A program made the translations under genes and the position numbers. Of a stretch of DNA of 64,000 nt, positions 14,686-40,136 are shown piece by piece. The DNA comes from Fibrisoma montanum (GTDB lineage Bacteria; Bacteroidota; Bacteroidia; Cytophagales; Spirosomataceae). The stretch's first letter is position 1. Every line of letters begins with the position of its first letter. The notes beneath the pieces were generated by a model, which did no database searches, was not told the origin of the DNA, and saw only the letters and a program-made list of their open reading frames with translations. The stretch lies in NCBI RefSeq assembly GCF_003583365.1, contig NZ_QXED01000003.1, forward strand, positions 186,001 to 250,000, in the 5' to 3' direction.

Positions 14686-14850
14686 CGGACTACTATGGTT
14701 AAGGTTGACAAGAAGCGCTACCTTCCTCTGACGCAGTTTAAGGTATGCGTATGTTGATAAAGCTATATCTCCCCCGTTTTTACTACTGCAGATTAATAGG
14801 GCCACTTTTCTAATCAGCTAAATAAATATTTGAAAGTGAACGGGTTATAT

Positions 14851-14890
14851 TGAGCTTGCAAGCTTAATGTTTGAATTGTTTCCAATTGGA
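14851..14890. promoter_or_regulatory. Two palindromes upstream of the AT-rich operon (operator candidates)
   Basis: 14851-14868 is a near-perfect palindrome centred on AGCTTGCAAGCT (12 bp perfect), and 14881-14890 is the perfect palindrome TCCAATTGGA. Both lie 40-80 bp before the first gene of the DUF4132 operon, where a regulator would bind. Confidence 0.35.
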
Positions 14891-14930
14891 GTAAATTTTT
14901 TATAAAGCTGACAAGACATCGGTTTGGTAG

Positions 14931-15473
14931 ATGCGATTTGACGAGCTAACATTAACCTTGTTAGGACAATCAAAAGAACCAATGTATGTTTACTGCTTCT
15001 GCTTTATACGTAAAAAGATCATTTGCCAGCAAAGAATGGTTATTCTGAAAACGCCCTCAACGCTTCTAGCAAAAAAGCGTTACGTAACTGCACTCAGGCA
15101 GTATCAATTTCATTCGTGCTTTGAATTGATAATTGCACTTTTTGCCCATTATACAAAGGGGAACAGCAATTGGGATGCTCTTCAACTGCTACTTGAGCAA
15201 ACAGAGTTTACCAATTTTTCAAATCTCGATGATAAACAAATGGTAGAACTACGCCAAACTGCACTTCATGTTTACAACGAATGGAGATATAACATGGACG
15301 TTGAACGCTTGAGCTATCTACTTGCTGGTGCCATAAATTGTGGAAAAGTTATACTGATCATCGATGGAATGAAAGTAAACGATATACAGCAGCCTGTTAA
15401 TTTAACAGATCAATCAGTAATTGCCTTTTTTGATGTAGACCACCTTAAAACTATATCTTTTTTTTCTTACTAA
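14931..15473 (+). CDS. Uncharacterised protein, first gene of the DUF4132 operon
   Basis: A 180-residue protein I do not recognise. The frame is much more AT-rich than the flanking core genes. Hydrophobic and aromatic runs are scattered, no signal peptide is evident, and the C-terminal part (about 120-180) alternates hydrophobic stretches (VILIIDGMKVND, SVIAFFDVDHL) in a way that suggests an alpha/beta fold. The stop at 15473 is 2 bp before the ATG of the DUF4132 gene, so the two are almost certainly translated from one message. The start could be the ATG at 14931 or Met36 at 15036, since the first 35 residues are cysteine-rich and atypical. A role as partner or regulator of the DUF4132 protein is inference from linkage only. 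Confidence 0.65.
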   Translation: MRFDELTLTLLGQSKEPMYVYCFCFIRKKIICQQRMVILKTPSTLLAKKRYVTALRQYQFHSCFELIIALFAHYTKGNSNWDALQLLLEQTEFTNFSNLDDKQMVELRQTALHVYNEWRYNMDVERLSYLLAGAINCGKVILIIDGMKVNDIQQPVNLTDQSVIAFFDVDHLKTISFFSY

Positions 15474-15475
15474 GT

Positions 15476-18400
15476 ATGGAAACCTTGAAACAAGTATTTG
15501 CTAACCTTAACTCATCTGATAAAGATATATTCACTGGAGAATTTTCTGATCTCATTTTAGATTGGTTTACGAATTCAAAGTTATCTATTGTAACTTTTGA
15601 GCAGAAGTTCTATGAGCCACTATTCAATTCGTGGAAACAAGAATCTTATTTAGGACAAAGAATTGCCAGTTCAAGTTCACTGCAGGCAGCTTATCATCAA
15701 TTAGCAGCTATTTTATATCTAACTTACCAAACTAAAAATCAGGTTTTTTTTGACCAGCTATTTAAGCAGCTATTTACGGAGAAATCCTACTCTGAGGAAA
15801 GGTCATTGATTTATGAATCAATACGGTCGTGTACATCGTTAGTAAGAGGGCTGCCTAATAATTCTTCCTTGCGTTCTTCTGTTGAACTAAGCCGGATGTT
15901 GCTTCGTGCTTATCATGCTCTTTGTATTAGAAAAGACCAAAATATTAGTACTCCGTACAATATCGCTTCATCGTTTGTTTATGAAAAGAGAGAACTAACA
16001 CCGTTAGATATAAATGATTATCTTATTTTTTTAGAAAATGTCAGAGCTCATGGAACTCCTTATATATTTTTAAGAATTGGGTCCGAATTACTTACACACG
16101 AACATATTCATCTTAAATCTTGTGTCAAATTCTATAATCAAACTCATCAACCGACACTGAGCACTGAAACTTGCATTCAACTGAGTAATTTTCTAACTTT
16201 TAAACAATTACCAATTTTCCTGCGAACCGATTGGAAACAACGTAAAAAGTTAAAAGCTAATAATATAGAAAACTTTGAAACATTTCTTACCTATAGTAGG
16301 CAGAATTGGGAAGAGATGTTAATTGCAATTAGTTATTTTTTGAATTATGAATATCTGCACGATGAAGTTAAAGGTATATGGGCAAGTGCTTTAAGTGAAC
16401 TGTTACGGGGAGTTCAACCACGTCGAGAATGGATGCTATCATTTCTTAGAGCTACACATAAGGTTGATAGCTTTATCATGCAGCATTTAGTGATTCCCTT
16501 ATTTACAAATATAGCCGATAAGCTGGAGTATACCGACGATTTAGTGTATGAGTTTGAACAGATGCTATTTCAGCCAAAATATTATGGGGAGATCATTTGT
16601 AGGCCTGAGGGTATACAAATTTTACGCCAACTAGCCACCCGTATTGACAATATTGATCTGAAGGCTTTGTTTCTAAATCGATTGAATCCATGCCGCATCC
16701 ACAGCCAGTCTGATACGTTAATATGGTATGAACTCGAGAGAGATAATAATGATAAGAAACACAGTTATTTCCGTAATTTATTAAATGATCTTAGTTTAAT
16801 AATACCGGCAGCTTTAACAAATGTAAAACGCCCTAATATTTATAATGAAGATGGGGGAACGCTCTTTCATATGAACGTAAATGGGGAAGACGTTCAGATT
16901 GACTTCCCGGTGCAGGATATTAATCAGGTATTAAGAAAACAACAGACCGGCTACCGGCTGATTATTATTCCGATTCGTCAGTTAACACTACGTACGCAAT
17001 ACACTGACGGGAAAACCTACACAATTGGCTCACTGGCTTTCATGGCAGAGTCGGAGTATCAATATTTTGTAAATACCTATCTGGCAGTACGGTTTCCAAA
17101 TTTGCTTTCATTAGACCTATATGCTCTACTTAATTTTGACAATCAAAATAAAATTCCGTTTCATCAACTTAAAGAGCAGGTTTTGCAACGGGTAGAACCA
17201 ACTAACTCTAATCGGTTCCTGAGTGATGTCAACTGGGGTTGGTTCAAGGAGCGCTACATAAATGGTCTAAATAGCAGGGAGAGTTGGTATAGAATTATGG
17301 ATTTCCTCATTAGCACTCCTGCTTCCAAATCTCCAACAATCAAATGGTTGACCGAAGCTAAACGCCATGTGACGCAATTCGGCGAGGAACGATTTTTCCA
17401 GGAGTTACGTGTTCTGATGACAGACTCGGGCAAGGAGGAATTTTGGTATCTGGACGTAAATCGAAACACAATCAAGGCATTTATCTGGCTATGTGTTCAT
17501 TACACCACCGAAAACTCGTTGCAGATTGTACGAATGATCGTCGAGGAGGCATACACTAAAATTAGCGGTATCGGCCCCCGTTGTACTTCCTTAGGAAATC
17601 TGGGTCTTGATAGCCTTGCCCGTTCTGGTAAACTAGCCGCGTTTGGAGTATTGTGTCTTATGAAGACAAAGTCACGGTATAACCGATTTACTGTTCAGAT
17701 AGAAAAAGCAATTGCTCTCTTTATTGCAAATTCAAACGTAGACGAAGAGTTGCTAAGCGATCAGTCAATTCCTGTTTATAGTTTTTCTGCTCAAAGCAGA
17801 AAAACTATTTTTTTGGAGGATTATCGCTTGGAGCTATCAGTTCGTGGTATGAAACTATACAAGGAGTGGTACGATCTGTCGGGAAAAAAATTAAAAACTA
17901 CTCCTAAACTTAAGCTTGACCTACGCGAAATTGATGCAGAAGTCAAACAGGTACATGGAGTACTCAGTGACATTCAAAAGCGATTACGGACATATTGGCT
18001 TAACGATCGTCGATGGAAAGGGGCTGATTGGAAAACGTATCTTTATTCTCATCCACTTGTTCGTCCGGTAATAACTCATATGATCTGGCGCAATCAGACA
18101 ACACAACAGGATTTTGTCATTGAAGACGCTGGGCTTTTCAGCCTAAGCGGAGAGCCGGTTGCACTACAGGATGATGACATAGTGTTATTGTGGCACCCTT
18201 TATTGAGTGACCGACAGACTATCCAGCAATGGCAACAACTCTTTTGGCAGCGTGAAATACTACAGCCTGAACGACAGGCCTTTCGTGAATTTTATCCTTT
18301 TTCAGAGACAGAAGCGAATTTGGTGAGCACAATGCGGTTTAGCGGCCATTTTCTACAGGTGAACAAATTAATGGCAATAGCTAATAATTTAGGTTGGACC

Positions 18401-19063
18401 TTTACTTATGTTCATGAAGGTGCAAGCTGGCCGCGTCGTTACGTTAAAGCACTAGATATAACGGCTCACCTAATTTGCGACTATGATCGAAATGACCTTT
18501 ATATTCCAACAAAAGAGCTTGTATTTACTAGAGGTAATACAGTTAAACTGGATGAATCAAGGTCTGCATGGAACCAAGTGCAAATTCGTGATTTACCACC
18601 AACAGCATTATCCGAATTATGCCGTGATATTGACTTATTTATTGCATCAACAAGCATTGCTGATGATTCAGTACTTTCTGGTAGCCGGTCAGATTTAGGA
18701 GCTTATCGGATTTCTTATCAATCTGGATTATTTTCAGAAAATGCATCAGGGAAAATTAGGCAGCAAATTCTGACTTGGCTTCTGCCGGAACTGGGTTTAC
18801 AGAATGTTAGTTTTCAGGGAAATTATTTATGCTTCAACGGGAAGTTAAATGCATACCGAATTAATTTGGGTAGCGGGTTTGCTCAAATAAAAGACAGCGG
18901 CAAGCACATAAATCTGTTACCGTCTCAGAATGCTAAACCCAGCAGTAAGATTCAGTTACCTATTGAAGATGATCCCACGTTGACAATTATTATAGCTAAA
19001 ACTTTATTCCTTTACAATGACTCATCAATCAAAGACGAATCTATCAAAAGCCAGTTAACTTAA
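15476..19063 (+). CDS. DUF4132 domain protein (MolR/YehI-like), large
   Basis: A 1195-residue protein close to the length of E. coli MolR/YehI. The N-terminal ~400 residues look all-helical. Family hallmarks lie in the C-terminal half: the segment around LGNLGLDSLARSGKLAAFGVL followed by IEKAIALFIANS (about 705-755); RPVITHMIW, then DDIVLLWHPLL and a W-rich linker to QPERQAFREFYPF (about 860-945); and a final beta-rich piece with HINLLPSQ and DPTLTIIIAKTLFLYND (about 1140-1185), which matches the conserved end of DUF4132 proteins. No WGR domain is seen. Homologues often travel with MoxR ATPase, VWA and SWIM genes, none of which is here. Biochemical function is unknown. AT-rich composition against GC-rich neighbours suggests horizontal transfer. 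Confidence 0.78.
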   Translation: METLKQVFANLNSSDKDIFTGEFSDLILDWFTNSKLSIVTFEQKFYEPLFNSWKQESYLGQRIASSSSLQAAYHQLAAILYLTYQTKNQVFFDQLFKQLFTEKSYSEERSLIYESIRSCTSLVRGLPNNSSLRSSVELSRMLLRAYHALCIRKDQNISTPYNIASSFVYEKRELTPLDINDYLIFLENVRAHGTPYIFLRIGSELLTHEHIHLKSCVKFYNQTHQPTLSTETCIQLSNFLTFKQLPIFLRTDWKQRKKLKANNIENFETFLTYSRQNWEEMLIAISYFLNYEYLHDEVKGIWASALSELLRGVQPRREWMLSFLRATHKVDSFIMQHLVIPLFTNIADKLEYTDDLVYEFEQMLFQPKYYGEIICRPEGIQILRQLATRIDNIDLKALFLNRLNPCRIHSQSDTLIWYELERDNNDKKHSYFRNLLNDLSLIIPAALTNVKRPNIYNEDGGTLFHMNVNGEDVQIDFPVQDINQVLRKQQTGYRLIIIPIRQLTLRTQYTDGKTYTIGSLAFMAESEYQYFVNTYLAVRFPNLLSLDLYALLNFDNQNKIPFHQLKEQVLQRVEPTNSNRFLSDVNWGWFKERYINGLNSRESWYRIMDFLISTPASKSPTIKWLTEAKRHVTQFGEERFFQELRVLMTDSGKEEFWYLDVNRNTIKAFIWLCVHYTTENSLQIVRMIVEEAYTKISGIGPRCTSLGNLGLDSLARSGKLAAFGVLCLMKTKSRYNRFTVQIEKAIALFIANSNVDEELLSDQSIPVYSFSAQSRKTIFLEDYRLELSVRGMKLYKEWYDLSGKKLKTTPKLKLDLREIDAEVKQVHGVLSDIQKRLRTYWLNDRRWKGADWKTYLYSHPLVRPVITHMIWRNQTTQQDFVIEDAGLFSLSGEPVALQDDDIVLLWHPLLSDRQTIQQWQQLFWQREILQPERQAFREFYPFSETEANLVSTMRFSGHFLQVNKLMAIANNLGWTFTYVHEGASWPRRYVKALDITAHLICDYDRNDLYIPTKELVFTRGNTVKLDESRSAWNQVQIRDLPPTALSELCRDIDLFIASTSIADDSVLSGSRSDLGAYRISYQSGLFSENASGKIRQQILTWLLPELGLQNVSFQGNYLCFNGKLNAYRINLGSGFAQIKDSGKHINLLPSQNAKPSSKIQLPIEDDPTLTIIIAKTLFLYNDSSIKDESIKSQLT

Positions 19064-30164: not shown

Positions 30165-32099
<1,935 letters not shown>

Positions 32100-32116
32100 T
32101 AAAGATTAGTATATAG

Positions 32117-32146
32117 CCCCGCCAAGATTTCTTGGCGGGGTTTTTT
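32117..32146 (+). terminator. Rho-independent terminator of dnaK
   Basis: CCCCGCCAAG and CTTGGCGGGG form a perfect 10-bp stem around ATTT, followed by TTTTTT. Lies directly before the AT-rich ATPase-DUF4435 gene. Confidence 0.9.
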
Positions 32147-32177
32147 ATACACACATAAAAGATCAAAATAAACATCG

Positions 32178-33815
32178 ATGAGAAGGACTATAAACATTCC
32201 TTTTAGCAATAATTCATATGGCCAGTCTACAGCCTTAACGCTACCAGAAATCACTAATTCGATTGTTATTCTTGGAGCGAATGGCTCTGGTAAAACTAGA
32301 TTTGGTAGTTATATTGAAGAGAATAATCGTGATACTCATAGAATAACTGCTCAAAAGTCATTGATGATGCCTGATGTAGTAAATACTACCTCTTTAATTG
32401 TAGCAGAGTATAGTTTTTTATATGGTTATTACGATCCAAATCAAACGAGCGATTGGTTACAAACAACTGGTAAGAGAAGTCATCGATATCAAAACAACCC
32501 TAATACATATTTGACGAATGACTTTTATCCTTTAATGACGCTACTTTTCTCTGACGAGTTTGAAACATCTATTGAATTTAAGGAAAATTCTAAAAATGGT
32601 ACTCCACCAAATATCGATACTAAATTAGATAAAGTAATATCAATTTGGCAAGAACTCTTACCGCATCGGAAATTAAGAAAACGTAGTGGGGCCATTGAAG
32701 TTGCTTCGGTAAATTCATTTAGTAATACAATATATAACGGGTCGCAAATGAGTGACGGTGAACGAGTCATATTTTACTTAATAGCCGAAGCAGTTTGTAT
32801 AAAGCAAGAGTCAATACTCATTATAGACGAGCCTGAGCTGCATATTCATAAATCAATAATGAAAAATCTTTTTGATAAGATTGAAAAAACTCGCCCAGAT
32901 GTTTTATTCGTATATCTAACTCACGATATTGATTTTGCTGTATCACGCGTTGGTGCTTATAAACTGTGGCTTAAATCGTTTCATGGAGTAAATTTTTGGG
33001 AATATCAGCAAATTCAGCAGGACAGTAACATACCTGAAGAAATTTATCTTGAGATTCTTGGTAGCCGCAAGCCAGTATTATTTGTTGAAGGGCAAAGGAC
33101 AAGTATTGATTATCTATTGTACAGTGTACTTTTTCCCAATTATACTGTAACTCCTGTTGGGGGGTGTGAAGAAGTAATAGATGCAACCAAAACGTTCAAT
33201 GGGCTGAATTATTTTCATCATCTTGTTGCTAAAGGTATAGTTGACCGTGACCGCCGTACCGATGATGAGATTAGAAGGCTACAGGATCGTAAAGTAGAAG
33301 TATTGCAACTTGCAGAAATAGAGAATTTATTTTTGATAGAAGAAGTGGTGAAAGCAGTTGCAAATCATATGCACAAAGATGCTGAGGCCGTTTTTCAACA
33401 TGTGAAAAGTAAAGTGTTAGCTGCATTTAGTCAAGATTTAGAAGCACAAGTTATCGAGCGTACTATTCATCGTGTAAAGAAGACTATAAACCAAGCAACA
33501 AATAATAGAGTGGACGATTGGACCTCACTGGAGTCGGTGCTTAGTGATGCATTCAAAATAGATACATATCGTAGTATCTACGCTGATGTAAAATTGGAAC
33601 TTGAAAACCTATCTACGCAAGGTAGTTATTTGGAAATATTAAGAGTTGCTAATATTAAAAGATTGCTTGAGAGATCTGAGTTTGCAGCACAATGTGGATT
33701 AATCAATAATGGCGACATGATAAGAGATTTTATAATCAGTATTTTGAAAAGTCAATCTCCAAGCAGCCAAGTGATCAGGCAATTTATGAAGAGTTACGTT
33801 AGTGGAAATTGGTGA
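32178..33815 (+). CDS. ABC-type ATPase fused to DUF4435 TOPRIM domain (PARIS-like candidate)
   Basis: A 545-residue two-domain protein. N-terminal ABC/SMC-like ATPase: Walker A GANGSGKT (33-40), signature region MSDGERV (191-197), Walker B ILIIDEPE (213-220) and the switch histidine in LTHD (249). C-terminal DUF4435 of the TOPRIM fold: PVLFVEGQR with Glu304, a PVGGCEEV motif, GIVDRDRR with Asp356 and Asp358, and ENLFL. In PARIS anti-phage systems the ATPase AriA holds the TOPRIM nuclease AriB, and the two can be fused in one protein; this gene has that order. OLD-family nucleases are the alternative, but the DUF4435 motifs favour PARIS. The gene is AT-rich and alone between dnaK and GC-rich genes, which suggests transfer. 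Activity is inference. Confidence 0.82.
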   Translation: MRRTINIPFSNNSYGQSTALTLPEITNSIVILGANGSGKTRFGSYIEENNRDTHRITAQKSLMMPDVVNTTSLIVAEYSFLYGYYDPNQTSDWLQTTGKRSHRYQNNPNTYLTNDFYPLMTLLFSDEFETSIEFKENSKNGTPPNIDTKLDKVISIWQELLPHRKLRKRSGAIEVASVNSFSNTIYNGSQMSDGERVIFYLIAEAVCIKQESILIIDEPELHIHKSIMKNLFDKIEKTRPDVLFVYLTHDIDFAVSRVGAYKLWLKSFHGVNFWEYQQIQQDSNIPEEIYLEILGSRKPVLFVEGQRTSIDYLLYSVLFPNYTVTPVGGCEEVIDATKTFNGLNYFHHLVAKGIVDRDRRTDDEIRRLQDRKVEVLQLAEIENLFLIEEVVKAVANHMHKDAEAVFQHVKSKVLAAFSQDLEAQVIERTIHRVKKTINQATNNRVDDWTSLESVLSDAFKIDTYRSIYADVKLELENLSTQGSYLEILRVANIKRLLERSEFAAQCGLINNGDMIRDFIISILKSQSPSSQVIRQFMKSYVSGNW

Positions 33816-33937
33816 ATTATGGAGCGTTTGCCAAACTTGTGACACAGTTTGGCTGGCAATAGCAATCAAAAGGGTTGTTGGTGAAAAGCATAGTAACGTT
33901 AATGTATATTTCTGACTGTGTAGGTAACTGCACAACG

Positions 33938-33971
33938 CAAACGCCCCGGCTGGTAACGGCCGGGGCGTTTG
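33938..33971. terminator. Bidirectional hairpin terminator
   Basis: CAAACGCCCCGGC and GCCGGGGCGTTTG are perfect 13-bp arms around an 8-nt loop, between the plus-strand ATPase-DUF4435 gene and the minus-strand gene ending at 33990. Confidence 0.75.
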
Positions 33972-33989: not shown

Positions 33990-34487
33990 CTACCCCCGCT
34001 TCAACTCGGGTTTGCGGTTCAGCAGGGCGAACACCACCGTAGTGATAGCAGCTCCGATGAGTACCTTCTGTACCAGCCCCTTGCGGTCGTATTTCCAGTC
34101 ACCGCCCCAGCCTTTCTCGGCGAAAATGTTGGGTACGTGGCCCTGTCTGATGTCGTCGATGATACCCTCCACGACGTTGACCCGGTCGGCCAGCAGCAGG
34201 GGAATCCAGTGACCAAAGCTCGATTCGCTGTATTTAAACGCGTACCGGCGAAGCTGGCCGCTCAGGCCCGTCGGGGGCGCCGACGTACCAAAGACGGCGC
34301 TGACGTTGGGCCGTTCGTTGGAATGCAGTACCTCGATGTTGACAGGCTGCTGGGCCGGGCGCTCCCAGGTATAGCCTTTTTCTTCCTCCTTTTCCCGGTG
34401 GCGCATGGGGTACGTCGGATCGTTTTTCGGATCGGCGTCGATACCCCAGCCTTTGATGTGCGCAAAGTTTTTAGCTAAATCTTCCAT
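33990..34487 (-). CDS. Uncharacterised protein with C-terminal membrane segment
   Basis: A 165-residue protein I do not recognise by family. The N-terminal half is polar and rich in Lys, Glu and Pro; a PTGLSGQLRRYAFKYSES segment precedes an aromatic helix (GHWIPLLLADRVNVVEGIIDDI), and the last 25 residues form a probable membrane helix (VLIGAAITTVVFALL) with a basic end. It starts 11 bp after the alcohol dehydrogenase stop on the same strand, so the two are co-transcribed and may work together at the membrane. Function unknown. Confidence 0.75.
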   Translation of the reverse strand: MEDLAKNFAHIKGWGIDADPKNDPTYPMRHREKEEEKGYTWERPAQQPVNIEVLHSNERPNVSAVFGTSAPPTGLSGQLRRYAFKYSESSFGHWIPLLLADRVNVVEGIIDDIRQGHVPNIFAEKGWGGDWKYDRKGLVQKVLIGAAITTVVFALLNRKPELKRG

Positions 34488-34498
34488 GACGGCTGTGA

Positions 34499-35653
34499 TT
34501 ACAGTTTGGCTGATGGGGGAATTAAGACAGGTTTGATGCAGTTGTCGAGCTTGGCCGAGAAAATGTGGTACGCTTCGGACACTTCTTCGAGCGGCACCCG
34601 GTGCGTAATCATCGCCTTGGGGTCAAGAATGCCGTTTTTGATGTGCTCGATCAGCCGGGGCAGCAGCCGCTTCACCGACGCCTGGTTGGCCCGGATCGTG
34701 ATGCCTTTGTTAACGACATTCCCGATGGGGATCAGGTTGCCCGTAGGCCCGTATACCCCAACGATGGACACAATGCCTCCTTTTTTAACGGAATTGATCG
34801 CCCAGTGGAGCGCCGTAGCCGAACCAGCCTGGAGCAGCAGTTTCCGACCGGTGATGGTCTGCATGGCGCTGCCGGCCGCTTCGGCCCCTACAGCGTCGAT
34901 GCAGACATCGGCACCCAGCCAGTCGGTAGTCCGCTTGACGAATACGACGGGGTCGTCAATCTCCTTGAAGTTATACGCTTCGCAATGGGCGTAATTCCGG
35001 ACAAATTCAAGCCGGTAGTCAACGTGGTCGAAGACGATGACGCGGGCCGCGCCGAATAGCCAGGCGCAGCGGGCCGCCATAATCCCCACCGGACCAGCGC
35101 CGAACACTACGACCGTATCGCCGGGCTGAATCCCGCCCATTTCAGCGGCCTGGTAGCCGGTCGGCACGACATCGGTCAGCAGCACGGCATCGTCGGGGTG
35201 CATCCAGTCGGGAATAACCGTCGGGCCGACGTTGGCGTAGGGAACCCGGACGTATTCGGCCTGCCCGCCGTCGTAGCCACCGGCCGTGTGCGAATAGCCG
35301 AAAATGCCCCCCACGGCCGTCGCTTCCGGATTGGACTCGTGGCAGTTGCCGTACAGCCCCTGTTTGCAGAAGACGCATTTGCCGCAGGCGATGTTGAAAG
35401 GGACAATGACCTGGTCGCCTACCTTGATCATGTGCACGTCGGCGCCGACTTCTTCCACCACCCCAATAAATTCATGCCCAAACGTGGACCCCACCCGGGT
35501 GTCGGGTACGTTGCCATTGTAGAGGTGCAGATCCGACCCGCAGATGCAGGAGCGGGTAACCCGAACGATGGCATCTTCCGGATGCAGGATTTCAGGCATG
35601 GGTTTGTGATCGATGCGAACCCGCTGGGGGCCGCGGTAATTCATGGCGAGCAT
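34499..35653 (-). CDS. Zinc-dependent alcohol dehydrogenase
   Basis: About 384 residues from the ATG at 35653; a longer frame to 35761 adds 36 residues lacking family features. Medium-chain dehydrogenase: catalytic-zinc residues in CICGSDLH and GHEF, structural-zinc cysteines in CGKCVFCKQGLYGNC, NAD-binding GAGPVGIMA. It oxidises or reduces small alcohols or aldehydes; the insert and length resemble formaldehyde-dehydrogenase-like members. Followed on the same strand by the small membrane protein at 33990-34487. Confidence 0.9.
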   Translation of the reverse strand: MLAMNYRGPQRVRIDHKPMPEILHPEDAIVRVTRSCICGSDLHLYNGNVPDTRVGSTFGHEFIGVVEEVGADVHMIKVGDQVIVPFNIACGKCVFCKQGLYGNCHESNPEATAVGGIFGYSHTAGGYDGGQAEYVRVPYANVGPTVIPDWMHPDDAVLLTDVVPTGYQAAEMGGIQPGDTVVVFGAGPVGIMAARCAWLFGAARVIVFDHVDYRLEFVRNYAHCEAYNFKEIDDPVVFVKRTTDWLGADVCIDAVGAEAAGSAMQTITGRKLLLQAGSATALHWAINSVKKGGIVSIVGVYGPTGNLIPIGNVVNKGITIRANQASVKRLLPRLIEHIKNGILDPKAMITHRVPLEEVSEAYHIFSAKLDNCIKPVLIPPSAKL

Positions 35654-36109
35654 GGGAATCGTTTTTGGGTGTACGACAATGAACCAAACCCCGTACCGGA
35701 TAGCCTGCCACGCAGCCTGCGTACGGATCGGGGTATAATGCATTCTGTAACCCAAATGCAAAACACTTGTTCTACGGTAGGCATACGAGAGTATTGATAT
35801 GTAGGGGCTGTCTGCCCGTCGGCTGGTGGGTTTTGCCCGATTATCAGAGGGCTTTTCGGCACTGGAGGGGTGGTTTGACCAGACGCTAAGAATTCGCGTC
35901 GATTAGCCAACGGGGCGCTGTGGTCCGTTTGCTCAGGGTTGCAGGACCGGCGGTTGCGGAGTACGCGCTGGCTGGCGAGCCGGCGTACGTCGGGATAGTG
36001 CAGGATGCGTTCGTGCTCCAAACGTGATTAATTGACTATACAACCCCCGTGGCCATGCGCATGAACGCCTTTCGTTGGTGGTCACGCCTTTCGCTTACCC
36101 GTAGACCCT
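35654..36109. other. Intergenic region before the GH106 gene
   Basis: 456 bp between divergent genes. A minus-strand frame at 35641-36021 has no recognisable features and overlaps the dehydrogenase start. No promoter box with an exact match was found. Confidence 0.4.
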
Positions 36110-39100
36110 ATGCTTACCCGTCGTACCTCATGGCTGAAAGTAGTGGCCTTGCTGACGCTGCTCCGTATTCCGGCCGTTTCGCAGTCCGTTAACGCCTTAC
36201 AGGCCGGTTTTCAGCAGCCGCCCGCATCAGCCCGCCCCCGGGTCTGGTGGCACTGGATGAACGGCAATATTTCAAAAGAAGGCATCACTAAAGACCTGGA
36301 ATGGATGAAACGGGTTGGTATTGGTGGTTTTCAGAACTTTGATGCCAGCCTGTTTACGCCCCAGGTGGTGGCCCAAAAACTGGTGTTTATGACCCCCGGC
36401 TGGAAAGAAGCCTTCCGCCACGCAACGGATCAGGCGGGCCGGCTGCAACTGGAGATGGCCATTGCCGGATCGCCGGGCTGGAGCGTTACGGGTGGTCCGT
36501 GGGTGCAGCCGCAGGATGGGATGAAGAAATACGTCTGGACAGAAACGCGGATCAGCGCCGGGCAGCCGTTTCAGGGAAAATTGCCCCGGCCGCCGGCGAT
36601 AACGGGGCCGTTTCAGCAGGTGGAGATGCCCAAATCGTCGTTGCTCTCCCAGCGGGAAGCGCAGCTGCCGACGTTCTACCAGGATGCAGCCGTGATGGCT
36701 TACCGGCTGCCTGCTACGGACCGGGTCTTTACGGCCCTGCAACCGACCGTTACGTCGAGTGGCGGCTCGTTTGACCTGAATCAGCTAACCGATGGGGACG
36801 TGGCCACGACCCGTTACCTGCCGCCCACGGCCGTCGGCGAGGAGATGTGGATTCAGTACGCCTTCGATACTCCGCAGACATTCAGGGCGTTTACCATTGC
36901 CGGCGCGAGCCACGTGGCGCTGGAAGAATTCAACGGAGGGCCGCAGAACCGTTCGCTGACAGTCAGCGATGATGGGGTGAATTTCCGGGCCGTCGTGGCC
37001 ATTCCGGGCAGTATCGTTCCGCAGAATACCCTGAGCATTCCGCCCACCACGGCCCGGTATTTTCGGTTTACGTTCACAACCCTGCCCCCGCAGGTCAATA
37101 TGTTCGCGGCCATGGCGGGGTTGAAGACGGAGCCGCCCAAACCCGAGGGCGTGAACGTAGCGGAACTGGTTCTGCACACCACCGACCGGATTCACCTGTT
37201 CGAAGACAAGGCTGGTTTCAACCCCTGGAACGAGGAGCCTGCGTTACCGACTTCGCCCGGGGCCGACGCCATTCCGGCAGAGGATGTGGTCGATCTGACC
37301 GACCGTATGCAGCCCGACGGTACCCTGGCGTGGACCCCACCGGCGGGTCGGCCGGGCGACTGGGTCATTGTGCGGCTGGGCTATTCGCTGACGGGCCGGC
37401 AGAATCACCCGGCCTCGCCCGAAGCCACTGGTCTCGAAGTGGATAAACTCGACAAAGGAGCCGTCCGAAACTACATCAATACGTACCTCGATATGTACCG
37501 CGAGGCTACCGGCGGACAGATGGGGGCCAAAGGGCTTCAGTACATGGTGCTTGACAGTTACGAAGCCGGCCACATGACCTGGACCAGAACCCTGCCGGAC
37601 GAGTTTGCCCGTCGGCGCGGGTACGACCTCAAACCCTGGATCCCAGTGCTGACGGGCCGGGTCGTGAACAGCACGGAAGCCAGCGAACAGTTCCTGTGGG
37701 ATTTTCGAAAAACCATCGGGGAACTTATCGTTGACAGTCACTACGACGTCATCGGCGACGCCCTGCACCAGCGGGGCCTGAAACGGTATACCGAATCGCA
37801 CGAGAACAAGCGGATTTACCTGGCCGACGGCATGGATGTAAAACGCCGGGCCGATATTCCGATGTCGGCCATGTGGACGCCGGGGAGTCTGGCTGGGGGG
37901 GCAGACGAAGAAATCCGCAGCAAAGCGGATATCCGCGAGTCAGCGTCGGTGGCGCACCTGTACGGGCAGAACCTGGTCGCGGCCGAGTCGATGACCTCGG
38001 TCGGGAATGCGTTCAGTTTTCATCCGGAAAAGCTGAAGCGCACGGCGGATATGGAACTGGCTTCGGGGCTGAACCGCTTCGTGATTCATACGTCGGTACA
38101 CCAGCCGCTGGATGATAAGCAGCCGGGGTTTTCGCTGGGGCCCTTTGGTCAATACTTTACCCGCCACGAGACCTGGGCTGAGCAGGCCAGACCCTGGGTC
38201 GATTACCTGAGTCGGAGCTGCTACCTGCTCCAGCAGGGGCGACCCGTGGTAGATGTGCTGTATTACTACGGCGAAAACCAGAACATTACCGCGCTGTTTG
38301 CCAGGCAGTTGCCGCCCATCCCGGCCGGGTATGAATACGACTTTGTGAATGCTACGGCCGTCAAAACGGCCCTCAAGGTGGCCAACGGCAAGATTGTAGC
38401 ACCGAGCGGGCAGACCTACAGCCTTATGGTGCTGGACCCGTCGGCCCGGCAGATGACCCTGCCGGTGCTGAAAACGCTCCGGGATCTGGTCAAAGCCGGG
38501 ATTAAACTCACCGGCACGAAGCCCGAACGCTCACCCAGTCTGAGCGATAACCCCACCGAATTCCAGGCGGTGGTCAACGAACTCTGGCGGCATCCGAACG
38601 TCATCGATAAACCCATCGATGCGGTGCTGGCCGCGTTGAGTCTGCCGAAGGATGTGGCCGTATCGAACGCGAAATCCGAGGTGCTGTATGTCCACCGCCG
38701 GCTCGACAATCAGGATGTGTACTGGCTCAACAGCCGGAGCGACGCGCCCAACGAAGCCGTGGTGAGTTTCCGGGTACTGGGAAAAGTGCCGGAACTATGG
38801 CATCCGCAGACGGGCCGGATCGAAGCAGTGTCCTATGAAATCAAAGACGGCCGGACCCTTATTCCGCTGACGTTTGACCCCTGGGATGCGTATTTCATCG
38901 TGTTCCGGCAGAAGGCCACAGCAGCCTCCTTTACCAAACCGACCCTGTCGACGGCGGAAGTTGCGCAGGTTGAGGGGCCCTGGACCGTGCAGTTTCAGGC
39001 CGGTCGGGGTGCACCGGAGCAGGCTACGTTCCCGCAGCTGACATCCTGGACGGACAATGCCGACGCCGGAATTAAGTTTTTCTCCGGTACGGCTACTTAC

Positions 39101-39448
39101 AAGAACGCGTTTGACCTGCCGACGCTGGATAAAACCGGCCGCTACGTCCTGAATTTGGGTGAGGTCAAAAACATCGCCGAGGTCATCGTCAACGGAAAAG
39201 CCGTGGGCACCGTCTGGAAAAAACCGTTCCGGCTGGACGTCACCGACGCCCTCAAACCGGGCCGGAATGCCATCCAGATCAACGTAACCAACCTGTGGGT
39301 CAATCGCCTGATCGGGGATGCGCAGCCGGACGTAACCCGGAAAATTACCTTCACGACGATGCCGTTCTACCAGGCCAATGCCCCTCTGTTGCCCGCCGGA
39401 CTGATGGGCCCGGTTACGGTTTCGGTGAGGAAACAGACAGGGTTATAA
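36110..39448 (+). CDS. GH106 alpha-L-rhamnosidase-like glycoside hydrolase, secreted
   Basis: A 1112-residue exported enzyme with a signal peptide at about 1-26. The N-terminal hallmark RVWWHWMNGNISKEGI followed by DLEWMKRVGIGGFQNFDA is typical of GH106, which removes L-rhamnose from pectin-like polysaccharides (rhamnogalacturonans). The catalytic region runs to about 750 (with MVLDSYEAGHMTW and EDGHFDP-like context around ESHENKR), a beta-sandwich follows, and a galactose-binding-like domain ends the protein (about 985-1105: GRYVLNLGEVKNIAEVIVNG). It stands alone here, without a SusC/D pair. Confidence 0.88.
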   Translation: MLTRRTSWLKVVALLTLLRIPAVSQSVNALQAGFQQPPASARPRVWWHWMNGNISKEGITKDLEWMKRVGIGGFQNFDASLFTPQVVAQKLVFMTPGWKEAFRHATDQAGRLQLEMAIAGSPGWSVTGGPWVQPQDGMKKYVWTETRISAGQPFQGKLPRPPAITGPFQQVEMPKSSLLSQREAQLPTFYQDAAVMAYRLPATDRVFTALQPTVTSSGGSFDLNQLTDGDVATTRYLPPTAVGEEMWIQYAFDTPQTFRAFTIAGASHVALEEFNGGPQNRSLTVSDDGVNFRAVVAIPGSIVPQNTLSIPPTTARYFRFTFTTLPPQVNMFAAMAGLKTEPPKPEGVNVAELVLHTTDRIHLFEDKAGFNPWNEEPALPTSPGADAIPAEDVVDLTDRMQPDGTLAWTPPAGRPGDWVIVRLGYSLTGRQNHPASPEATGLEVDKLDKGAVRNYINTYLDMYREATGGQMGAKGLQYMVLDSYEAGHMTWTRTLPDEFARRRGYDLKPWIPVLTGRVVNSTEASEQFLWDFRKTIGELIVDSHYDVIGDALHQRGLKRYTESHENKRIYLADGMDVKRRADIPMSAMWTPGSLAGGADEEIRSKADIRESASVAHLYGQNLVAAESMTSVGNAFSFHPEKLKRTADMELASGLNRFVIHTSVHQPLDDKQPGFSLGPFGQYFTRHETWAEQARPWVDYLSRSCYLLQQGRPVVDVLYYYGENQNITALFARQLPPIPAGYEYDFVNATAVKTALKVANGKIVAPSGQTYSLMVLDPSARQMTLPVLKTLRDLVKAGIKLTGTKPERSPSLSDNPTEFQAVVNELWRHPNVIDKPIDAVLAALSLPKDVAVSNAKSEVLYVHRRLDNQDVYWLNSRSDAPNEAVVSFRVLGKVPELWHPQTGRIEAVSYEIKDGRTLIPLTFDPWDAYFIVFRQKATAASFTKPTLSTAEVAQVEGPWTVQFQAGRGAPEQATFPQLTSWTDNADAGIKFFSGTATYKNAFDLPTLDKTGRYVLNLGEVKNIAEVIVNGKAVGTVWKKPFRLDVTDALKPGRNAIQINVTNLWVNRLIGDAQPDVTRKITFTTMPFYQANAPLLPAGLMGPVTVSVRKQTGL

Positions 39449-39500
39449 CGGTCCGCCCGTGAGTGGATACTCCGGTGGCTGAACTGATCGCCTGCGGCCG

Positions 39501-39537
39501 AAAAAGAGCAGCCTGCCGCAAGTTGGGGCAGGCTGCT
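39501..39537 (-). terminator. Terminator of the DUF4142 lipoprotein gene
   Basis: Perfect 11-bp arms AGCAGCCTGCC (39507-39517) and GGCAGGCTGCT (39527-39537). Read on the minus strand, the stem is followed by TTTTT (39505-39501), 24 bp after the DUF4142 stop. Confidence 0.75.
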
Positions 39538-39560
39538 TGGTATGGCGTCAACCGGACCTA

Positions 39561-40136
39561 TCAGTCCATGTTTTTGTCCAGCGTGGTTACCCGCTCCAGG
39601 TGCTTCTGCAGGGTGGGGAGGGTCTTGGCCGCAAACGCTTTCATGTCAGCATCGTCGGCGTCGTCGGCCGCTTCTTTGAACAGCTTGACGTCTTCCTCGT
39701 GGTCTTCAACCATCAGGTCGATGTATTTCTTATCGAACTCCGCGCCCGATAGCCGGCTGAGTTCGTCGACGTGCTTCTGAGCGTCCTCACCCAGGGTTGT
39801 GGGCAGGGTGATGTTCTTCTGAGCGGCCAGGGCTTTCAGTTCCTGATTCGCTTTCTGGTGTTCTTCTACCATCATGGCACCAAACGCCTTTACGTCGGCG
39901 TTCTGGGCTTTCTCCTGGGCGAGCCGCCCGAGCTCTACTTCGAGCAGACCACCGTTGGCGGCCTTCACGGCAAAGTCGTTGACGTCGTCGTCCTGACCCG
40001 AACCGGCCTGTTCTTTCATATCATTGGCGTCGTGGGCATTCTCGACGCTGTCGTCGCTGTCTTTCTTGTTTTCGTTGCAGGCCTGGAACGTCAGACTGCT
40101 GAGCGCCAGGAGCCAGATTAAGCTTGTCTTTTTCAT
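39561..40136 (-). CDS. DUF4142 lipoprotein
   Basis: A 191-residue lipoprotein with lipobox Cys20 (SLTFQAC), an acidic linker (about 21-50) and a DUF4142 helical bundle of the ferritin-like kind: GGLLEVELGRLAQEKA, AFGAMMVEEHQKANQELK and YIDLMVEDHEEDVKLF. Members are common in Bacteroidota and Rhizobiales, sit in the periplasm and are of unknown function, sometimes stress-linked. It is divergent from the epoxide-hydrolase-like gene. Confidence 0.9.
   Translation of the reverse strand: MKKTSLIWLLALSSLTFQACNENKKDSDDSVENAHDANDMKEQAGSGQDDDVNDFAVKAANGGLLEVELGRLAQEKAQNADVKAFGAMMVEEHQKANQELKALAAQKNITLPTTLGEDAQKHVDELSRLSGAEFDKKYIDLMVEDHEEDVKLFKEAADDADDADMKAFAAKTLPTLQKHLERVTTLDKNMD

Follow-up and report, generated by a model that had tools for sequence, protein, structure and literature searches.

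The 3' side of dnaK in a 64-kb stretch of Fibrisoma montanum DNA (hereafter the window) carries a single gene whose 545-aa product combines an ABC-type ATPase with a TOPRIM domain of the DUF4435 type; the protein is a further member of the known but poorly understood fused form of the PARIS defence system, not a new kind of system. We think it probable that this is a fused PARIS (AriAB) gene standing on its own, gained by horizontal transfer and encoding a sensor-gated TOPRIM tRNase that acts by abortive infection. The gene's integrity, domain order, family, conserved key residues, presence or absence with an empty site and occurrence on mobile elements are read directly from the data below, and its function would follow, by analogy, from the family assignment.

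An intact AT-rich gene beside dnaK

As the original prediction held, ATPase and DUF4435 TOPRIM domain lie in one chain, encoded by a single ORF (32178..33815, + strand) that runs from an ATG start to a TGA stop without an internal stop codon. The ABC-type ATPase half, resembling the AriA sensor, spans residues 1–291 (32178..33050, +) as judged from the AriAB model and conserved residues, and the TOPRIM half, resembling the AriB effector, spans residues 292–545 (33051..33812, +) as judged from DUF4435, the AriAB model and conserved residues. The contrast expected between an AT-rich gene and a GC-rich dnaK is evident (35% versus 58% G+C): the fused gene has a G+C content of 0.352 and a GC3 of 0.266, against 0.581 and 0.713 for dnaK (30165..32099, +), the core gene on its left flank, and a G+C of 0.539 for the window. 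Only 9 of 624 sliding 1638-bp windows are more AT-rich than the fused gene, one overlapping the gene itself and eight falling in a second island (starts 14701–15401). This second AT-rich island (14931–19063, about 35–41% G+C) holds a 180-aa ORF without a match beside a 1195-aa protein with DUF4132 and DUF7737, and no PADLOC match was found in it.

Strong terminators had been expected on both sides of the gene, and the upstream one is clear, a 12-bp stem followed by a T run forming an intrinsic terminator 3' of dnaK (32115..32142, +). The downstream counterpart is less certain: a palindromic hairpin at 33938..33971 (−35.4 kcal/mol) was not called by the terminator scan despite its high stability, and it is common to a congeneric genome (G001), which makes it part of the old flank rather than cargo. 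The right-hand neighbour of the fused gene is a convergent 165-aa ORF (33990–34487) without a Pfam match. In the 35 bp that separate the first hairpin from the start codon, the scan found no promoter of the sigma-70 type, the one type that it covers, and no Rfam element reached its gathering score in the 64-kb window.

Assignment to the fused PARIS family

The domain pair that characterizes fused PARIS, AAA_15 or AAA_21 together with DUF4435 in one protein, is present above the Pfam cut-offs: DUF4435 scores 67.6 bits (cut-off 27; 1.8e-18) over residues 297–506, and AAA_21 scores 33.9 bits (cut-off 27; 4.6e-8) over residues 189–250. The 2022 report on PARIS, which places AriAB in 5.2% of genomes, in two-gene or fused single-gene form, defines two-gene systems by the same Pfam thresholds and fusions by its own AAA_15 or AAA_21 plus DUF4435 profiles (PMC9122126). 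Among PADLOC models, the fused AriAB model PDLC02982 is the top match (439.6 bits, E = 4.3e-132, residues 24–541) and outscores every other defence family listed. Next among the best 25 of 52 families come a second AriAB model (57.2 bits), AriB (51.5), PDC-M01A (42.5), AriA (38.9) and AbiLi (37.1), with GajA at 23.2; the highest non-PARIS model among the matches listed is thus PDC-M01A, and the distance between 439.6 and 42.5 bits supports the proposed fused PARIS reading as a family assignment. Searched separately, as had been suggested, the two halves agree: the N-terminal 295-aa fragment matches the fused AriAB model at 3.3e-77, the C-terminal 250-aa fragment matches DUF4435 at 3e-19 and AriAB at 1.3e-48, and the C-terminal half matches the AriB profile at 7.1e-15. 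The PADLOC AriA and AriB models are nearly equal in length to Pfam AAA_21 and DUF4435 and probably not independent of them, and we count the two sources as one line of evidence; the AriAB model, for its part, describes the fused family itself, whose PARIS name rests on domain make-up (PMC9122126). NCBIfam gave 11 matches of the whole protein, none reaching its cut-off.

In domain order, single chain, length and motifs, the protein agrees with fused AriAB of the AAA_21 plus DUF4435 type (PDLC02982; PMC9122126), and we saw no feature that sets it apart from other fused AriAB except its new site 3' of dnaK. Single-gene PARIS was noted in 2022 (PMC9122126), a later review leaves undecided whether this form works as the two-gene form does (PMC10568477), and our literature search, conducted mostly without subscription papers, found no experiment on fused PARIS.

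The same review is also undecided whether single-gene AriAB form a separate OLD class or work differently (PMC10568477), which raises the alternative that the protein belongs to a wider OLD group of ATPase–TOPRIM proteins and acts like OLD or Gabija, its TOPRIM domain nicking phage or host DNA with no tRNA cleavage. Its domain order is indeed that of OLD and GajA, in which an ABC ATPase is likewise followed by a TOPRIM domain in one chain (PMC12409363), and the folds matched by the whole model include 6p74, 8u7i and 8x5i. The C-terminal half, however, for which a best match to an OLD-family or unrelated TOPRIM protein would have pointed away from PARIS, matches DUF4435 but none of the OLD TOPRIM models, and GajA, at only 23.2 bits against 439.6 for AriAB, is ruled out with OLD as the better family. 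We regard OLD-like action as unlikely. AbiL shows a fainter likeness, its AbiLi ATPase model reaching a weak 37.1 bits here, but AbiLi and AbiLii are separate genes.

Key residues are conserved across fused AriAB proteins

All of the motifs named in the original prediction are present: Walker A GANGSGKT (K39), IIDEPE (D217–E220) and LTHD (H249) in the ATPase half, and VEG (E304), DRDRR (D356, D358) and ENLFL (E382) in the TOPRIM half, with an additional signature motif, SDGE, at S192–E195. We examined them in two collections. Alignment A3 (and A4) comprises the 545-aa protein and 31 of 42 related loci from genome and IMG/VR contigs, the invariance counts holding for this chosen set; L063, whose protein is identical to that of L064, was left out, as were L056, L058, L059, L072, L073, L074, L076, L077, L078 and L079, which are short or distant. 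Alignment A1 comprises 19 fused proteins, the 545-aa protein and 18 of 19 fetched loci from genomes, plasmids and one phage, leaving out a relative split across two ORFs (L023), and its counts likewise hold for the set as chosen. G33, K39, S192, E195, P219, H249, E304, D356, D358 and E382 are the same residue in all 32 A3 sequences and in all 19 of A1, an invariance which argues that the motifs are not chance. Within A3, a single sequence departs at each of N35, G36, G38 and E220 (31 of 32 kept), and three at each of D193 and D217 (29 of 32).

Residue 218, next to the Walker B Asp, is more variable (Glu in 22 of the 32 A3 sequences, Asp in 7, Ser in 2 and Thr in 1; Glu in the 545-aa protein). 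We take it to be the position usually held by the catalytic glutamate of ABC ATPases, and its variation suggests that some fused AriAB members may hydrolyse ATP slowly. The catalytic residues expected of PARIS are otherwise intact, the protein having Walker A, signature, DEPE, His, TOPRIM Glu and DxD, whose roles here are presumed. In E. coli AriB, the TOPRIM Glu E26 is required for cleavage (PMC12409363); E304 would be its presumed counterpart.

A shortened ATPase and a short junction

Compared with the two-gene PARIS of E. coli B185, in which AriA forms a hexamer and AriB is a tRNase, the protein shares the ABC ATPase motifs and the DUF4435 TOPRIM domain, but it is one chain with a shorter ATPase half and a short, nearly constant junction, and its comparisons with AriB in sequence and fold are not significant. 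K39 and S192 are 153 residues apart here and 114–163 apart across the 32 sequences of A3, whereas in AriA (8ux9_B, 464 aa) Walker A K39 and the signature SSGE, which begins at S367, are separated by ~328 residues as read from the HMMER alignment, so that over the interval between these two motifs the fused AriAB clade is about 175 residues shorter than AriA of two-gene PARIS. ABC ATPases of the AriA kind often carry an arm or oligomerisation domain in this interval; in the predicted model of the fused protein, the interval holds helices of at most 23 residues.

The junction between the halves is equally compact. The spacing from His249 to Glu304 is 54–60 residues in 32 of 32 sequences of A3 and 53–73 in the 19 of A1, a near-constancy indicating that no long flexible linker separates effector from ATPase and making simple effector release unlikely; the separate, released effector of two-gene systems is not found here, where one ORF encodes both halves. 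These features raise the possibility, which we put forward tentatively, that the fused AriAB clade is a distinct ATPase–TOPRIM class with no long interlobe segment, its effector fixed close to the ATPase and with no AriB-style sequestration and release. The shortening may bear also on what is sensed. What the ATPase half recognizes may be a host state, or some phage product outside the Ocr-like anti-restriction proteins, a proposal compatible with our main reading of the effector; the loss of about 175 AriA residues would be in keeping with such a change, yet the missing segment may be a mere oligomerisation arm, and we give a different trigger somewhat less than an even chance. One fused AriAB, on a plasmid of Rhizobium sp. 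BT04 (L021, 4992–7214), has ~190 extra C-terminal residues that align with no other member.

Direct comparison with AriA and AriB

The predicted model of the whole protein had a mean pLDDT of 90.7, and the C-terminal half folded alone one of 92.8. Searched with Foldseek, the whole model gave 131 PDB matches at E ≤ 0.001, headed by retron PtuA (7.0e-8); the ATPases of cohesin, OLD (6p74) and GajA (8u7i, 8x5i) were among the best 50 of these 131, all of them, PtuA included, with low TM-scores, and no AriA was among the same 50. By sequence, AriA was within reach: a profile of 19 fused proteins found AriA chains (8ux9_B, 1.8e-7), and profile comparison of the ATPase half with its two-gene counterpart gave a Prob of 92.9. 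The solved AriA chains (8ux9, 8v45–8v49) are, we assume, those of E. coli B185 PARIS.

For the C-terminal half, Foldseek against the PDB returned 0 of 468 matches at E ≤ 0.001, and phmmer against PDB sequences gave nothing meaningful, neither search finding a solved AriB. An hhalign comparison with one Paraburkholderia two-gene AriB, used as a single-sequence template, had a Prob of 1.1, its short aligned piece spanning the DxD-like and IEN motifs. As a control, the Paraburkholderia AriB was itself searched by sequence against the PDB and recovered no AriB chain, which marks the sequence test as insensitive. The AriB comparisons do not support a close link of the C-terminal half to characterised AriB, and of the structural resemblance to AriA–AriB assemblies that was to be looked for, what emerged is the AriA relationship in sequence profiles, with no AriB fold and no AriA among the best 50 of 131 folds.

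An empty site in a congeneric genome and sporadic spread

G001, the one other genome of the genus compared, lacks the fused gene although its dnaK is 99% identical and its flanking DNA 89% identical. Between the dnaK stop and the common hairpin it has 19 bp, against 1.84 kb here, and the matching flanks define an inserted segment (32100..33938) that includes the terminator at 32115–32142, directly 3' of dnaK. The fused gene thus appears, from this comparison, to have been acquired horizontally. Carriage by a transposon or integron was considered and rejected: there are no edge repeats, no tRNA in the 64-kb window and, by inspection, no integrase among the neighbouring ORFs. Adjoining the PARIS locus, a GH106 alpha-L-rhamnosidase gene (36110–39448) lies between flanks (35278–39565) that are only ~0.36 kb apart in G001; by the same sequence comparison it is apparently a second gain or loss.

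A presence/absence comparison, which had been proposed as a check, shows the fused family to be sporadic among relatives. Some match to the protein occurs in 9 of 59 relatives (its own genome included), with long matches in three besides its own; the family model finds 7 of 198 genomes (own included; one partial, 5.0e-31), and class-wide the count is 3 of 295, again including its own. Together with the clean empty site in G001, the 7 of 198 rules out a core gene present in all relatives, the outcome that would have spoken against the original prediction.

Further afield, 53 plasmid records from several phyla match, 27 of them covering at least 80% of the query and 16 being from Campylobacter, many near-identical. 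Of 12 plasmid stretches, ten have a single annotated CDS, one has no annotation and one has two CDSs; integrase, recombinase, transposase, relaxase or defence-like genes lie nearby in 6 of the 12, and two of the single-CDS stretches have metabolic genes and no mobile genes around them. One fused relative is carried on a 5.8-kb mobilizable Psychrobacter plasmid and others on conjugative plasmids, and Oenococcus phage phi9805 carries one 3' of its lysin and holin genes. An alignment-based search recovered at least 20 related loci in IMG/VR viral contigs and at least 22 in genome contigs, where a search with the single protein found nothing in either. On a Paraburkholderia sabiae plasmid (L080, 7538–11813), a two-gene AriA/AriB pair is followed directly, in tandem, by a fused AriAB; GTPase-associated genes, a PDDEXK nuclease gene and an integrase gene lie near them.

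A single gene of sporadic occurrence on mobile elements might also be selfish addiction cargo, toxin–antitoxin-like and without a role in phage defence, and a commentary does group PARIS with toxin–antitoxin systems (PMC11455837). The ATPase sensor residues are nevertheless conserved, and the 2022 report states that deleting either gene of two-gene PARIS is non-toxic, its authors excluding a toxin–antitoxin pair (PMC9122126). We consider addiction very improbable.

How a fused PARIS protein might act

Under the fused PARIS reading, the ATPase half would assemble through ATP-bound nucleotide-binding domains and keep the TOPRIM half idle, until a protein of phage origin, plausibly a DNA mimic or one that counters restriction, attaches to the ATPase half. 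The resulting rearrangement would pair or unmask two TOPRIM domains in place; the paired domains would cut host tRNAs in the anticodon stem, halting translation, and the infected cell would cease growth before the phage can spread. Sensing, tRNA cleavage and abortive infection are carried over here by analogy with the two-gene E. coli system, while activation in cis, without effector release, we infer from the anatomy of the protein. The E. coli effector AriB is described as released and dimerised (PMC12409363; PMC11455837), which is hard to picture in one chain with a short junction; the authors of the E. coli work themselves suspect that AriB activation goes beyond simple release (PMC12409363). 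With its short junction, its shortened ATPase and a relative that has the empty site, this compact fused gene opens the question of release to direct testing. Should the fused protein protect uncut, release would not be required, and the hint about AriB activation in PMC12409363 would be strengthened; otherwise the locus adds another entry to the records of a widespread defence gene.

The host may have restriction of the kind that a phage could inhibit, with four N6_Mtase matches, two of them strong (5.7e-66 and 1.4e-56), on contigs that carry ResIII genes as well (18 matches in the genome). N6_Mtase occurs as well in 13 of 14 control genomes, and restriction being near-universal there, its presence in the host is only compatible with PARIS sensing. 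The mark of a PARIS effector is cleavage of host tRNA between positions 40 and 41. In our survey of host tRNAs (40 matches, 30 loci read), both tRNA-Lys(UUU) genes read UAAUG|U and lack the E. coli AriB site, so that the chief target in E. coli may not be one here; the host tRNA loci bearing on this are L101, L102, L103 and L107. In E. coli, cleavage affects tRNAs that carry UAAUC|A and barely the one that carries UAAUG|C, but the site by itself does not suffice (PMC12409363). If the fused effector keeps the E. coli site preference, its targets in this host would be Thr and Asn tRNAs, the candidates being tRNA-Thr(UGU) and tRNA-Asn(GUU).

The 3' side of dnaK in related genomes

Of the 61 genomes of the family that were searched, 59 gave a dnaK match at E ≤ 1e-200, and the surroundings of dnaK were scanned in 58 loci (L155–L212) of the 59 genomes, L148 being too short. 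Dropping ORFs longer than 900 aa, together with L198, reduced the set to 56 loci carrying 111 downstream ORFs and 57 loci carrying 104 upstream ORFs. Matches to DndA/SspA and ZorB were set aside as resembling housekeeping genes; PDC-S04, PDC-S09 and SoFic each had one match that remained unplaced; and 20 ORFs were rescanned singly. Six downstream loci were placed with a PADLOC match at 1e-15: AbiTii (L164), PDC-M55, which is GmrSD by Pfam (L178 and L180), an AbiLi plus AbiLii pair (L183), a kinase of the PD-T4-6 kind (L184) and the fused PARIS gene of this study (L212). Upstream of dnaK, at most two loci matched (PDC-S03, SoFic), and the downstream excess is not significant (Fisher p = 0.16; p = 0.27 without our own gene, at 5 of 55). 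In eight within-genus comparisons of right flanks, a common gene behind differing cargo was clear in two (G031/G361 and G009/G367), with two distant or rearranged matches and four with none; with right flanks common in only two of eight, several of the differences beside dnaK may be rearrangements rather than insertions at one site. Together these observations are no more than suggestive of a defence hotspot 3' of dnaK. In a further locus (L181), a HEPN AbiV gene, recognized by Pfam only, lies 3' of dnaK, and three genomes of one genus (G002, G349 and G364) carry three different defence-like genes there.
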